In this document: in pieces, positions 3,323 through 9,385 of the stretch
How the letters are laid out: each line of letters opens with the position of its first letter
Numbering within the stretch: position 1 is the stretch's first letter
From: Candidatus Cloacimonadota bacterium
GTDB taxonomy: Bacteria; Cloacimonadota; Cloacimonadia; Cloacimonadales; PWNZ01
Assembly (NCBI GenBank): GCA_003564155.1
Contig: PWOA01000040.1
Coordinates: 1-32,196 of the forward strand
Reading direction: 5' to 3'
DNA length: 32,196 nt
The notes under the pieces: model-generated
Told to the model about the DNA's origin: nothing
Database searches by the model: none
Seen by the model: only the letters and a program-made list of their open reading frames with translations
Position numbers and translations under genes: made by a program

Positions 3323-3370
3323 TATATCGATATATATAAATATTGACACATATCGATATATCTGTATCTT
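3323..3370 (+). promoter_or_regulatory. Putative arsR promoter with two copies of a palindromic operator
   Basis: Palindrome tatatcgatata at 3323-3334 and core atatcgatat at 3350-3359. TTGACA (3343-3348) is 16 nt from TATCTT (3365-3370), so the second operator copy lies inside the promoter spacer. Confidence 0.65.
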
Positions 3371-3401
3371 GTCTGTAGTATTCAAAAACTTGGAGATAAA
3401 A

Positions 3402-3755
3402 ATGGAACAATATAAGAAACTGACAACTATATGTAAAGCATTGAGTGACCCGGCACGTGTCCAAATATTAGATATGCTTTCATGTGGAGAAATGTGTGCC
3501 TGCGAACTTTTACAAAGGTTACAGATAAGTCAATCTACGCTTTCTCATCACATGAAAGTACTAATCAACAGCAAATTAGTTATTGGTAAAAAAAAGGCTA
3601 CTTGGATGAATTATTCTTTAAATAGCGAAAGGATTTCCAGTTTTCATGAACTTCTCATCGCCATAACCGAACCAAAAGATGAATGCATTTGTAATATTTC
3701 TTCAAAGTCTGTTTCCGATGAACCCATTAAGTGGAACGATTTTGATAACAAATAA
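3402..3755 (+). CDS. arsR: ArsR/SmtB family metalloregulator
   Basis: LSDPARVQILDMLSCGEMCACELLQRLQISQSTLSHHMKVL winged helix with a CxC in the recognition region. Start MEQYKK with GGAG upstream. Confidence 0.88.
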   Translation: MEQYKKLTTICKALSDPARVQILDMLSCGEMCACELLQRLQISQSTLSHHMKVLINSKLVIGKKKATWMNYSLNSERISSFHELLIAITEPKDECICNISSKSVSDEPIKWNDFDNK

Positions 3756-3773
3756 ACACGGAGCATATAAATT

Positions 3774-4070
3774 ATGAAAAGATTAACTTTTAAAGAAAGA
3801 GAATTAGTCGCACTTGGTGCAGCTATAGGGAGTAACTGCATACCTTGCGTTGAATACCATGTACCTAATGCAAAGAAAGCTGGTTTAAATAATGATCAAA
3901 TAACCCACGCAATAGAGATTGCAGAATCAGTAAAAGCAGTTCCTGCTGATAAGGTTTTAGCTAAAGCTTTGGATTTGGTTAAAAACACCGAAGAAAAAGA
4001 ATGTGAAGACCCTTCATGTGAATGCCGTGAAGTCATTCAACCTAATGACGACTCACCTTGCTGTAGTTAG
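3774..4070 (+). CDS. Carboxymuconolactone decarboxylase/AhpD-like protein with Cys-rich C-terminus
   Basis: GAAIGSNCIPCVEYHVPNAKKAGLNNDQI (CxxC...H) and tail CEDPSCECREVIQPNDDSPCCS. Confidence 0.75.
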   Translation: MKRLTFKERELVALGAAIGSNCIPCVEYHVPNAKKAGLNNDQITHAIEIAESVKAVPADKVLAKALDLVKNTEEKECEDPSCECREVIQPNDDSPCCS

Positions 4071-4362
4071 CTTGATAATGTTTGATAGAATTGTTGAAGT
4101 TCGGGCAAAGACACACTTTTCGAGGTTAAGCTTAAAGCAGCAGTTGTAATAATAATAGTAAGAGAATAAATTAATTTAGTAATATAAACTAACTATAAAG
4201 AAGAAACATGACGATGTGGCAAAATATGATTAGATCGGTTAGAAATGTTAAAACATTTAGAGTTGAATCAGTAAACTATAGTTACCGGTATCATCATCTT
4301 GAGTTCGGTAAATTTAGGTCAGAGGAGAACTTTTCAAGAAAGAAAGATGAAAGGTGAAAATA

Positions 4363-5427
4363 ATGGAGAAAGCAAAGAAAATAGAAACCGGGATCAGCTT
4401 CTTTGAAAAATACCTGACTATTTGGGTAGCAGCTTGTATGGTTGCGGGTATTCTTATCGGTCGGTATCTTTCTTTTATTCCCGACTTTTTAGGCAGGTTC
4501 GAATATGCTAATGTGTCAATCCCTATCGCTGTTCTTATTTGGCTGATGATCTATCCCATGATGATGAAAGTGGATTTTTCAAGTTTAAAGAATGTCGGGA
4601 AAAGTCCTCAGGGACTTTATCTTACATGGATAGTTAATTGGCTTATCAAACCTTTTTCAATGTATGGGATTGCTTACTTATTCTTCTTCATTGTGTTCAA
4701 AACTTTAATCCCTGCCGAATTAGCCCGGGATTATCTAGCAGGAGCTATATTATTGGGAGCGGCACCGTGCACGGCGATGGTGTTTGTCTGGAGTCATCTT
4801 ACAAAAGGTAATCCTGCTTATACAGTAGTCCAGGTTGCTACTAACAATATTATACTTTTATTTGCATTCACACCCATTGTAGCTTTACTTTTGGGTGTAA
4901 GCGGTATTAGTATTCCTTGGGATACGTTGATTCTTTCGGTTGTATTGTTCGTGGTTATACCTCTAGCCGGTGGTATAATTACCCGTATGAGCGTTATTAA
5001 GTCTAAAGGGTTAGATTACTTTAGCGGTACATTTCTCCCGAAGTTTAGCAACATTACTATAGGTGGCTTGCTGTTAACCTTGGTAATTATATTTTCTTTT
5101 CAGGGACAGATTATTCTTAAAAATCCCCTGCATATTTTCCTGATAGCTATACCCTTAACGATACAGACATTCTTCATATTCACCATTACATATGTGGCTG
5201 CTATGAAATTAAAAATGAGTCACTGTGTTGCTGCGCCTGCCGGTATGATCGGAGCTTCCAACTTCTTTGAACTGGCCGTAGCTGCAGCCATTGCCTTGTT
5301 TGGTGCTGCTTCTCCAGTAGCTCTGGCAACTATAGTCGGTGTTTTAGTAGAAGTTCCTATCATGCTTACCTTAGTCAGAATAGCCAACAAAACGAGACAT
5401 CGCTTCCCGGCTACAGAAAAAGCTTGA
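4363..5427 (+). CDS. arsB: ACR3 family arsenite efflux transporter (GTG 4354 is an alternative start)
   Basis: About 10 TM segments; signatures MMMKVDFSSLKNVGKSPQGL, LGAAPCTAMVFVWSHLTKGNPAYTVVQVATNNIILL, APAGMIGASNFFELAVAAAIALFG. Confidence 0.9.
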   Translation: MEKAKKIETGISFFEKYLTIWVAACMVAGILIGRYLSFIPDFLGRFEYANVSIPIAVLIWLMIYPMMMKVDFSSLKNVGKSPQGLYLTWIVNWLIKPFSMYGIAYLFFFIVFKTLIPAELARDYLAGAILLGAAPCTAMVFVWSHLTKGNPAYTVVQVATNNIILLFAFTPIVALLLGVSGISIPWDTLILSVVLFVVIPLAGGIITRMSVIKSKGLDYFSGTFLPKFSNITIGGLLLTLVIIFSFQGQIILKNPLHIFLIAIPLTIQTFFIFTITYVAAMKLKMSHCVAAPAGMIGASNFFELAVAAAIALFGAASPVALATIVGVLVEVPIMLTLVRIANKTRHRFPATEKA

Positions 5428-5518
5428 CCTGTTTGGCCTAATCACCAAATACATCAGTTCTATTAAATGAAATCGAACAATTATTATAATAAAGCAAATG
5501 ATTTATAAAGGAGCATAA

Positions 5519-6820
5519 ATGAATATCGGTGAGTTAAAAAAGCTTTTAATACTGATAGCGGTGTTTACAGGTGCATACTTTATGCCGATAGAAGTAGAAA
5601 GGTTTATCGGTGGTATCTTTGAATCTCTGCATCTGTTACGATATTATGCCAGAGAACATACAATACTTTGCCTCATACCGGCACTTTTTATTGCCGGAGC
5701 AGTGAGTGTATTTATCAGTCAATCGGCAGTGATGAAATATCTTGGTGGAGAAGCAAAACAATGGATAAGCTATTTAGTGGCATCAGTCAGCGGAACAATT
5801 CTTGCAGTTTGCTCTTGTACCATTTTACCGCTTTTCAGTGGTATATATAAGCGAGGTGCCGGTTTAGGACCTGCAGTTGCCTTTTTGTATTCGGGTCCGG
5901 CAATAAATATTCTAGCAATAATTTTAACAGCTAGAGTATTAGGCATAAGAATGGGGATTGCACGAGCCGTAGGTGCAATAGTATTCGGAGTAGTGATCGG
6001 TTTGGTAATGCAGTTTATTTTCCGTCATGAAGACAGAGAACGGCTCAAAGGCTTTCAACAGATGGCAACAGACGAAAAAGAACGTCCTGTTTGGCAGAAC
6101 ATTATCTATTTTGCATTGCTGGTATTGATATTGGTTGTCGTTAATTGGGCACAACCTGATCCTAACACCGGGATAGGCTTTGTCTCGTTTATGTATGCTA
6201 ATAAATGGGTATTAACATCAATATTAGGTTTATCGTTGGGAATTGTGTTATGGAAGTTTTTTGGATTAAAGTTTTGGAAACTTGCCGCTTCAGTTTTGGC
6301 AGTAGTTATTTCAACACTAATAATCCCAGGCAATCATACACTGCACTTTATAGTGGCAATTACTTTTCTGAGCATCTTTTTAGCCACAGAAAACGAAGAT
6401 TTACAACAGTGGCTAGGAGGTACTTGGGATTTTGCTAAATTAATTGTTCCACTGCTATTCATAGGAGTAGTTATAGCCGGAGCACTATTAGGACGGCCAG
6501 GCGAAGAAGCATGGATACCTTCCGTTTGGATTGAATCTTTAGTTGGTGGCAATTCTTTAGGGGCTAATCTTTTTGCGTCTGTAGCAGGAGCATTTATGTA
6601 CTTTGCTACCTTGACAGAAGTTCCCATTTTACAAGGTTTGATGGGCAGTGGAATGGGTAACGGCCCTGCGTTGGCACTGCTGTTAGCCGGACCGGCTTTA
6701 TCTCTGCCCAGTTTATTAGTTATCGTAAGTGTTTTAGGAGTAAAAAAAACTTCCGTATACATCAGTTTAGTAGTAATAATGTCAACAATAAGCGGTTTAT
6801 TTTTTGGAATGATTAGTTAA
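5519..6820 (+). CDS. Permease of the ArsP_1/DUF318 (PF03773) type
   Basis: AVCSCTILPLFSGIYKRGAGLGPAVAFLYSGPAINILAIILTARVLG and MGNGPALALLLAGPALSLPSLLVI. Confidence 0.82.
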   Translation: MNIGELKKLLILIAVFTGAYFMPIEVERFIGGIFESLHLLRYYAREHTILCLIPALFIAGAVSVFISQSAVMKYLGGEAKQWISYLVASVSGTILAVCSCTILPLFSGIYKRGAGLGPAVAFLYSGPAINILAIILTARVLGIRMGIARAVGAIVFGVVIGLVMQFIFRHEDRERLKGFQQMATDEKERPVWQNIIYFALLVLILVVVNWAQPDPNTGIGFVSFMYANKWVLTSILGLSLGIVLWKFFGLKFWKLAASVLAVVISTLIIPGNHTLHFIVAITFLSIFLATENEDLQQWLGGTWDFAKLIVPLLFIGVVIAGALLGRPGEEAWIPSVWIESLVGGNSLGANLFASVAGAFMYFATLTEVPILQGLMGSGMGNGPALALLLAGPALSLPSLLVIVSVLGVKKTSVYISLVVIMSTISGLFFGMIS

Positions 6821-6882
6821 CGATGTGTCAATCGATCAATGATTGATCACACAGGTTAAAAAACAAATTATTGGAGGATAAA

Positions 6883-7116
6883 ATGGTTATTAAAGTATTA
6901 GGATCGGGTTGTCCCAAATGTAAAAAACTCGAAGAGAATGTTCGCAAAGCCTTAGATGAAAGTGGTTTAACTGCCGAAGTTGAAAAGGTTACCGATATGA
7001 ATAAGATCATGGATTATGGTGTAATGATGACTCCCGGATTGGTCATTGATGAAAAAGTAGTTTCCACCGGTAAAGTATTAGTGCCGAAAAAAATTATTCC
7101 CCTGTTGAAGAAATAA
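6883..7116 (+). CDS. Small thioredoxin-fold protein (TM0996/MTH895-like; possible ArsE analogue)
   Basis: MVIKVLGSGCPKCKKLEENVRKAL ... YGVMMTPGLVIDEKVVSTGKV; cis-Pro motif. GGAGG before ATG 6883. Confidence 0.82.
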   Translation: MVIKVLGSGCPKCKKLEENVRKALDESGLTAEVEKVTDMNKIMDYGVMMTPGLVIDEKVVSTGKVLVPKKIIPLLKK

Positions 7117-7159
7117 GACTAATGAATATTTCCAAATAAGTTAAGAGGTTTAAGTGTTT

Positions 7160-8170
7160 ATGACTAAAAAGTTGTTATTATTTATCAATAGAAATCTGCA
7201 GAACAAGTCTATTTTCAAATCAGGGAGTTCTTCTTGTATTACAATTTTGATACCCTTGTTTATAATAATGTTAATAACCTTATATGGCTGTGAACAAATT
7301 CACAGCAAGGAAAAAGATTACGATAGTAATACAAAACTTGTAGAATTATATCCTTTATTATCAGACTCACCATTAGCTCATGCTAAACTAACTTTCTTGC
7401 CGGAGGAAACTTTACTTCGTTCCGGTGATATAGAAATCTCGGTTCAGGAAATAGATGAGCAGGTAAATGCAGCTTCCCAAAGAGTTAAAGATCAGTTGAA
7501 AGACAATCTTTTCTTTATTTTAGAACAGCAATTCACGGAGATAGTACTTTTAGAAGAAGCTCGAGAAAAGCTTCTTGAAGACGGTATGGATACAGCATCT
7601 ATGACTGATAGGCAAATCTTTGAAACGTTCTTCAGTCAGATGACTGGTAATATTGTGATTACAGAAAAAGAAATAAATGAATTCTATACAGCAAATAAAG
7701 AAGTTATGGGCGGAATGCCTTTAAAACAAGCCAAACCACAAATAGAAAGCTATCTAATACAACAGAAACAACAGCAGGTTATCGAAATATTTGTTTCTCA
7801 AACCGTATCAGGTAAAGAAGTAGAAATAGCTTATGAGTGGACAAAAGAGCAAGCTGATAGAGCTTTAGACAATAGTATAGATAAAGCACGGGAATCAGGT
7901 AAGCCTTCTTTTGTGAATTTCGGATCGGATACTTGTGTGCCTTGTCAACAAATGATACCTACTCGAGAGGCGGTAAGTGAGATTTATAAAGGTAAAGTTA
8001 ACATGGTTTATATCCATGTAGACAAAGATCAATTTTTAGCTTCTCGGTACGGAGTACAAAGTATCCCGACACTTGTTTTTTTTGATAAAAGTGGTATGGA
8101 AACAAAACGTCATGTTGGAATTATGACTCAAAAACAAATAGAAGATCAACTTAATGCATTACTTGATTGA
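7160..8170 (+). CDS. Predicted lipoprotein with SurA_N/PpiC-linker-like region fused to C-terminal thioredoxin domain
   Basis: Lipobox LYGC; helical region EISVQEIDEQVNAASQRVK...EKEINEFYTANKE...; Trx domain GKPSFVNFGSDTCVPCQQMIP...YGVQSIPTLVFFDKSG. Confidence 0.75.
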   Translation: MTKKLLLFINRNLQNKSIFKSGSSSCITILIPLFIIMLITLYGCEQIHSKEKDYDSNTKLVELYPLLSDSPLAHAKLTFLPEETLLRSGDIEISVQEIDEQVNAASQRVKDQLKDNLFFILEQQFTEIVLLEEAREKLLEDGMDTASMTDRQIFETFFSQMTGNIVITEKEINEFYTANKEVMGGMPLKQAKPQIESYLIQQKQQQVIEIFVSQTVSGKEVEIAYEWTKEQADRALDNSIDKARESGKPSFVNFGSDTCVPCQQMIPTREAVSEIYKGKVNMVYIHVDKDQFLASRYGVQSIPTLVFFDKSGMETKRHVGIMTQKQIEDQLNALLD

Positions 8171-8183
8171 AAAAAAATAAACT

Positions 8184-8642
8184 ATGCGGGGAAAAATAAA
8201 CAAAATTACAGGTAACCTACTGTTGTTTTTCGTTATATTCAGCTTAGGATTTGCAATTGGAAAAGAAGTTACCAGAAAACAGTCCGGATCGTCCGATGTA
8301 ATAACCTCTCCTGGCAACCGGGTAGTAGTTTACTATCTACGTTCCACTTTTCGTTGCTGGCAGTGTAATCTAATAGAGCAATATATTGATCAATTGATTA
8401 ACAATGATTTCCTTGAAGACTATGAGAATGACCTTTTAGACTGGATAGTGGTTGATTATCTACAGAATGACGAATTGGCAAATCGTTATAATATATCAGG
8501 CAACACTGTCATAGTATCACTTTATAAAAATGGATCAGAGTTCACTCACCACCGTTTGGATAGAGTTATGGAAAAAGTTTTTCATCATGATGTATTTATG
8601 GATTATGTAAGTGATGCAATAAAAGATTTGCTTGATTATTGA
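8184..8642 (+). CDS. ArsF-like membrane-anchored CxxC protein
   Basis: N-terminal TM (NLLLFFVIFSLGFAIG) then VVVYYLRSTFRCWQCNLIEQYIDQLI...LLDWIVVDY...; recalled resemblance to the ArsF family. Confidence 0.65.
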   Translation: MRGKINKITGNLLLFFVIFSLGFAIGKEVTRKQSGSSDVITSPGNRVVVYYLRSTFRCWQCNLIEQYIDQLINNDFLEDYENDLLDWIVVDYLQNDELANRYNISGNTVIVSLYKNGSEFTHHRLDRVMEKVFHHDVFMDYVSDAIKDLLDY

Positions 8643-8668
8643 GTGATATATCAAAGGAATAAAAATCT

Positions 8669-9385
8669 ATGATACCTTTATTAGTCATGTGGAGTGCCTT
8701 TTTTTTAGGAATTGTCACCTCTATTAGCCCTTGTCCTTTAGCAACCAATATTGCGGCAATATCCTTTCTAGGACGATCGCTTAACGATACGAAACAGGTG
8801 TTTTTATCGGGACTACTTTATACTATAGGTAGGATGATTGTCTATATTGGATTAGGTGTTTTAATTTTAATAGTTTTTGATGCAACTTCTGTTGCCGGAT
8901 CAGAAACAACTTCAAGTATATCCAGATTCTTGCAGAATAATATGGGGATAATTTTAGGACCTGTACTTGTAATTGTGGGGATGCTATTGTTAGGTATGCT
9001 GGAAACTTCATTTTCACTAAATTTTGGCAATCTGGCAATTCAGAATAAAATCGACAATAGAGGAATAATCTGGTCTTTACCTATGGGGATACTTTTTGCT
9101 CTATCTTTCTGCCCTGTGTCGGCAAGTCTTTTTTTTATTGGATTAATTAGTCTTTCAACACAATATTCTTCACCGGTCTTATTACCATTATTATATGGAA
9201 TTGGAACAGCCGTACCGGTTATAGTATTCGCAATTATAATATCTTTTATGGGTAAGTACGTTGGATTAGCATTTAACCGTCTTTCCCAAATAGAAAAATG
9301 GATTAGAACATTTACCGGTATTATATTTATCTTATCAGGTATTTATTATATTTTAACTCATATCTATGGAATAAGTATATTGTAG
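8669..9385 (+). CDS. ArsG/CcdA-like membrane protein
   Basis: Six TM segments with TSISPCPLATNIAAISFLGR and ALSFCPVSASLFFIGL, one Cys-Pro in each half, as in the CcdA/DsbD-beta fold. Confidence 0.75.
   Translation: MIPLLVMWSAFFLGIVTSISPCPLATNIAAISFLGRSLNDTKQVFLSGLLYTIGRMIVYIGLGVLILIVFDATSVAGSETTSSISRFLQNNMGIILGPVLVIVGMLLLGMLETSFSLNFGNLAIQNKIDNRGIIWSLPMGILFALSFCPVSASLFFIGLISLSTQYSSPVLLPLLYGIGTAVPVIVFAIIISFMGKYVGLAFNRLSQIEKWIRTFTGIIFILSGIYYILTHIYGISIL

Follow-up and report, generated by a model that had tools for sequence, protein, structure and literature searches.

What do thioredoxin-like proteins contribute to an operon of arsenic resistance? This question is raised by a stretch of 32,196 nucleotides from a Candidatus Cloacimonadota bacterium (contig PWOA01000040.1, in the following termed the window; contig C42 of a 1.86-Mb assembly with a completeness of 83%), in which eight plus-strand genes between positions 3403 and 9385 encode, in this order, ArsR, an AhpD-like protein, ACR3, a PF03773 permease, ArsE, a thioredoxin lipoprotein, ArsF and ArsG. 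Based on conserved cysteines, predicted topology and modelled folds, we propose with moderate confidence that ArsE, ArsG and the pair formed by ArsF and the thioredoxin lipoprotein constitute a transmembrane dithiol relay in which electrons would move outward.

Families were assigned by profile searches against Pfam and NCBIfam, with curated cut-offs in the case of NCBIfam. All genes named in an earlier interpretation of the letters alone (the sequence-only reading) are present on the plus strand and their family names were borne out, the profiles for ArsE, ArsF, ArsG, PF03773 and ACR3 all being matched above cut-off. ArsE (6883..7116), a predicted cytosolic thioredoxin-fold protein with a CPKC motif, reaches 106.4 bits with TIGR00412, 'MTH895/ArsE family' (cut-off 62), and ArsG (8669..9385), a CcdA/DsbD-like membrane protein with Cys22 and Cys148, 248.3 bits with NF040495 (cut-off 200) and 63.6 with PF13386. 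ArsF (8184..8642), a predicted membrane-anchored extracytoplasmic thioredoxin-fold protein with the motif RCWQC, lies only marginally above the NF040494 cut-off (61.4 vs. 60 bits), while ArsF proteins from other cassette-carrying genomes score 75-120 bits. The gene between arsE and arsF (7160..8170) encodes a putative lipoprotein that combines an N-terminal domain without family and a C-terminal thioredoxin domain (CVPC). The permease (5519..6820), a long form of 433 aa with Cys51, Cys98 and Cys100, matches PF03773 with 243 bits (cut-off 32); no functional equivalog was reached, its scores with the SO_0444 and SaoE models being far below cut-off.

The relay prediction hinges on a few cysteines, the conservation of which was followed in two surveys. 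Survey 1, a single scan of GTDB genomes with ArsG, yielded 80 loci; as C22 of ArsG lay in the scan pattern, its invariance is uninformative there, and for this reason a second sample was drawn by hidden Markov model (HMM) searches of four phylum-level sets of 199, 345, 399 and 346 genomes, in which ArsG exceeded the cut-off in 13, 30, 2 and 7 genomes, respectively. In this HMM-selected sample C148 is present in 57/57 sequences and C22 in 56/56, one row being truncated, and both are kept despite variation in the adjacent residues. Survey 1 recovered C148 in 85/85 ArsG sequences, Cys58 and Cys61 of the ArsF CxxC motif, the sole invariant columns of that protein, in 81/81, C14 and C17 of the ArsE CxxC motif in 73/73 (counting from a start that precedes ATG 6883 by four codons), C51/C98/C100 of the permease in 43/43 and Cys139 of ACR3 in 32/32. 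Beyond these residues, almost no cysteine is conserved in the relay proteins, ArsG included. In having one conserved cysteine per half of its membrane domain, ArsG resembles the CcdA/DsbD type.

Topology was read from hydropathy by means of a simple script rather than with a trained predictor. An N-terminal hydrophobic segment precedes the CxxC motif in 80/81 ArsF proteins, in 20/20 proteins occupying the thioredoxin slot and in 0/62 ArsE homologues. By this measure ArsE looks cytosolic, and ArsF and the thioredoxin lipoprotein look exported, in agreement with the topology that the sequence-only reading had predicted. The nearest solved structure to ArsE is MtH895 (1ilo, E 1.8e-13). Since profile searches against solved structures returned no match for ArsG and, for ArsF, weak matches only, to glutaredoxin-like disulfide oxidoreductases, the folds of these two proteins were predicted; one structure-model alignment was built without the plasmid-record row. 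The ArsF model (pLDDT, predicted local distance difference test, 90) matches thioredoxins in Foldseek. For the ArsG model (pLDDT 79), CcdA (5vkv) is the only PDB match with a probability of 1.00 (E 0.04, TM about 0.5), and hhalign of the ArsG profile with CcdA relatives gave 97.4% and an E-value of 1e-11, with the first cysteine aligned and the second off by one. Pfam assigns DsbD_2 to 50/53 ArsG members and LysE to 3/53. ArsG accordingly models as a CcdA fold, which is what the sequence-only reading had proposed for it together with the cysteine pair.

The cassette ArsR-permease-ArsE-(thioredoxin)-ArsF-ArsG is found in more than 15 phyla in survey 1, and the recurrence of the same neighbours in more than 130 loci is far beyond chance. 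When the survey loci were mapped with profiles made in this analysis, 84 same-strand blocks around ArsG, many of them ending at contig ends, contained ArsF in 81 cases, the permease in 64, ArsE in 63, ArsR in 56, ACR3 in 21 and a DGC protein in 9; LMWPc-type ArsC occurs in 13 blocks, glutaredoxin-type ArsC not having been searched for. The permease is a conserved core member of the cassette, and ACR3 and LMWPc-type ArsC are optional. The idea of a wider module, put forward in the sequence-only reading, is supported, with the permease in 64/84 loci as core and ACR3 in 21/84 as an option; the succession of ArsE, thioredoxin protein, ArsF and ArsG next to a permease is not confined to the window and is present in other genomes as well. 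The most frequent order is ArsR-permease-ArsE-ArsF-ArsG. ArsF and ArsG mostly abut or overlap (median gap -1 bp), and in the neighbourhood survey suggested at the outset, 56/57 loci taken from the HMM samples have ArsF as the gene directly upstream of ArsG. A natural ArsF-ArsG fusion exists in locus L117, its ArsF part scoring 46.9, below cut-off. Several such fusions had been suspected from long open frames; among the HMM-sample loci mapped, L117 is the only one fused. A cysteine-rich protein with a DGC domain (PF08859) often lies within the cassette (L180:4911-5330 and nine survey loci). In a Desulfobacteraceae genome, an in-frame TAG interrupts ArsF (L146, G113:C14:111755-112066), which may reflect a decayed gene, a sequencing error or recoding.

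We picture the operon as an arsenite unit (arsR, the AhpD-like gene and ACR3) joined to a cassette of ArsE, ArsF, ArsG and permease. On the cytosolic side, electrons from NADPH and thioredoxin reductase would reach ArsE, which would reduce CcdA-like ArsG at its Cys22-Cys148 disulfide; ArsG would hand the electrons on to the exported thioredoxin-fold proteins, ArsF and the thioredoxin lipoprotein, at the outer face. Electron flow and its direction are what we infer from the sequences. ArsF and the lipoprotein would then reduce an arsenical or keep outer-side thiols reduced, and we regard any one particular role of this kind as rather doubtful. The permease would export a thiol-reactive arsenical, probably trivalent and perhaps methylated, while ACR3 would export arsenite. 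Two thioredoxin reductases and an ArsM encoded in the genome count in favor of the relay. The substrates of relay and permease are a matter of speculation, methylarsenicals being plausible because ArsM occurs in the same genome.

The main rival to a relay is the published scheme in which ArsE and ArsF are nitroreductase subunits acting on nitro-aromatic arsenicals (roxarsone, nitarsone) and ArsG exports the aromatic amino-arsenicals. The NCBIfam names of NF040494 and NF040495 speak for this scheme. However, since a signal is absent from ArsE while 80/81 ArsF homologues look exported, the two proteins would share no compartment, and neither of them matches a flavin nitroreductase family in Pfam or NCBIfam; ArsG has an invariant cysteine pair of the CcdA-like kind, and the cassette occurs in many environmental phyla that seem unlikely to encounter synthetic nitro-arsenicals. 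We consider a nitroreductase with a pump unlikely on these grounds, and add that a relay could feed nitro reduction, in which case the published scheme may be wrong on the division of labor and yet right on the phenotype. A paper published in 2010 already described CcdA, thioredoxin and 'redox-active disulfide protein 2' in ars operons and pointed to possible transmembrane electron transfer (PMC2963123), so that this much is known; its proposal that the thiol proteins supply the cytosolic arsenate reductase ArsC fits with two LMWPc-family proteins encoded outside the operon in the genome studied here. The operon itself lacks arsC, the LMWPc-type gene is present in just the 13 blocks mentioned above, and a cytosolic ArsC requires neither a membrane shuttle nor an exported thioredoxin, which makes this the least probable of the explanations considered; as a general role it was rejected on the block survey. 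Hardly better placed is a general system for disulfide reduction or cytochrome c maturation that merely adjoins ars genes. It has in its favor the Pfam name of the ArsG domain, 'Cytochrome C biogenesis protein transmembrane region', but the NCBIfam equivalog is ArsG, ArsR is part of most cassettes (56/84), a separate DsbD is present in the genome (L003), and no CcmC/CcmF-type gene was detected by a Cytochrom_C_asm (PF01578) match in this 83%-complete genome. The role in cytochrome c maturation that the sequence-only reading had named as damaging to its interpretation was rejected for ArsG on the equivalog match and on the last of these results.

Several points weigh against the relay that we nevertheless prefer. 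ArsG is assigned as an efflux permease in the literature (PMC9144182), with which the NCBIfam name agrees, and transmembrane flow was already called into question where such genes were first noted, on the ground that ArsC is a protein of the cytosol (PMC2963123). The Foldseek E-value to CcdA is only 0.04 and the TM about 0.5, for an ArsG model of pLDDT 79; the second ArsG motif reads FCP where CcdA has GPC, and the profile alignment places it one residue away; and the superfamily of CcdA-like folds includes true exporters, 3/53 ArsG proteins having LysE matches. ArsF apparently lacks the thioredoxin cis-proline, another residue occupying the position in the alignment, and the evidence for the relay as a whole consists of sequence and predicted folds.

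Comparison with known systems helps to delimit the proposal. All three window proteins pass the cut-offs of ArsEFG (TIGR00412, NF040494, NF040495), likewise an ars-operon cluster, to which the window adds the thioredoxin lipoprotein between ArsE and ArsF, the AhpD-like protein, ACR3 and the long PF03773 permease; ArsEFG as named is a nitroreductase with a pump, whereas it is read here as a relay. The 2010 set comprises the same three kinds of protein and carries the same suggestion of electron transfer, but it consisted of eight instances tied to ArsC, while the cassette described here occurs in many phyla, mostly without ArsC, and both ArsF and the permease belong to its core. With CcdA/DsbD and their periplasmic thioredoxin partners, ArsG and ArsF share the predicted fold, one conserved cysteine per half and an exported thioredoxin partner, as well as the occasional fusion of thioredoxin domain and membrane part. 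ArsG differs from CcdA/DsbD in forming a family of its own with SPCPLATN and FCP motifs, in its association with ArsR and in having ArsF, without evident cis-proline, as partner. The ars cluster on Prevotella nigrescens plasmid NZ_CP072340 (L033) resembles the window in containing an arsR-like gene, arsF, arsG, an ArsE-like thioredoxin, the permease and acr3; it differs in gene order, in the presence of arsC, in the absence of a thioredoxin lipoprotein and in an ArsG that is 34-37% identical.

The thioredoxin lipoprotein between ArsE and ArsF marks one clade of ArsG (support 100/100) in which 16/19 rows are labeled as carriers, and 0/500 shuffles were as clustered; by inspection, the three unlabeled rows also have a thioredoxin lipoprotein-type protein nearby. 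The form with an additional N-terminal domain is found in the Cloacimonadota loci and in two others. No family could be named for this domain in Pfam or PDB sequence searches, which gave no support either for a SurA-like chaperone that had been suspected. In a Victivallales locus (L041, 1306-2556), an exported thioredoxin is followed by NosL-like and MerB-like domains, and a protein cut at its 5' end (L119:3-983) shares this C-terminal part; both are encoded just upstream of ArsF, and their Pfam scores for MerB (alkylmercury lyase) are 65 and 57 bits, respectively. These MerB-bearing proteins suggest an organometal(loid) chemistry that would be served by the relay. In a more far-reaching version, which we advance tentatively and hold to be possible rather than probable, ArsEFG would not be a nitroreductase with a pump; it would form a pair with the PF03773 permease and act as a dedicated transmembrane dithiol relay, exporting reducing power for extracytosolic handling of organometal(loid)s; the second exported thioredoxin in one ArsG clade and the MerB-like (carbon-metal lyase) extension in one locus, probably a second, hint that extracytosolic chemistry at carbon-arsenic or carbon-metal bonds may be powered by this relay.

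The arsenite unit opens with arsR (3403..3755), an HTH_5 protein of the ACR3-operon type, for which ATG 3403 is a better start than TTG 3369 as judged by the position of the ribosome-binding site; ATG 6883 for ArsE and ATG 4363 for ACR3 are likewise preferred. The arsenic-type MCAC motif of this ArsR lies in the sequence EMCACEL, a cysteine pair (CxC) in the DNA-binding helix as in arsenic-sensing ArsR. The usual ArsR of the cassette has four conserved cysteines, CVC and C81/C88, in about 42/54 survey ArsR genes beside a permease, the second pair being situated near the C-terminus, seven residues apart (e.g., L180:3133-3510). Window ArsR lacks this second pair and groups with the ACR3 type. 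A predicted promoter/operator (3323..3371, plus strand), found by repeat search and promoter scan, features ATATCGATAT twice at 26-bp spacing around TTGACA (3343) and a -10-like TATCTT. The layout ATATCGAT..ATAAATATTGACA..TCGATATAA also precedes the orthologous ACR3-linked arsR of G006, a genome from another family of the same order, which supports the repeat as a putative operator. The AhpD-like (CMD) protein (3774..4070), with CIPC and a Cys-rich tail, scores 48.7 bits with PF02627 and 31 bits with TIGR00778 and is rare, occurring in three loci of the cassette survey; ACR3 (4363..5427, Cys139) is a TIGR00832 equivalog (368 bits, cut-off 283).

The genes had been described as close-spaced, which holds for gaps of 13-91 bp throughout the operon except for one of 283 bp (4071-4353). 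A scan of the operon gaps gave no terminator-like site on the plus strand, and the eight genes are probably transcribed as one operon, presumably under control of ArsR. In a genome of the same family (G001), the place of the 283-bp gap is taken by a gene for a universal stress protein (L034:500-1408), flanked by the CMD gene and ACR3, so that the window may have lost this gene. In G006, the cassette stands under its own four-cysteine ArsR, and ACR3 lies apart from it, in a convergent unit with an arsR of its own. The most economical explanation is that both units were joined in the family of the window and that the cassette's own regulator was lost. A second copy of permease, ArsE, lipoprotein, ArsF and ArsG is located on contig C91 of the same assembly (L179, G000:C91); its DNA is 90% identical to that of the G001 locus, as against 79% for the window. 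Because its GC content is 40% vs. 34% in the window, binning contamination is possible, as is a true second copy. Outside the operon, the window encodes two proteins (132-581 and 1737-2669) with YPNPFNP at their ends, a sorting tail of the kind known from type IX-like secretion; in the second protein it is of the FlgD_ig/Por_Secre_tail type.

In the literature searched, no paper on the mechanism of ArsEFG was found; the name was in use by 2019 (Chen 2019, PubMed 31059239). As far as the literature searched shows, the breadth of the cassette, the core role of the permease and the independence from ArsC and ACR3 are new, as are the thioredoxin-lipoprotein clade, the four-cysteine ArsR and the merged regulation in the window. 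If the relay is true, a named resistance family of many phyla has been given the wrong division of labor: ArsG would move electrons, not arsenicals, and resistance would include redox work outside the cytosol.
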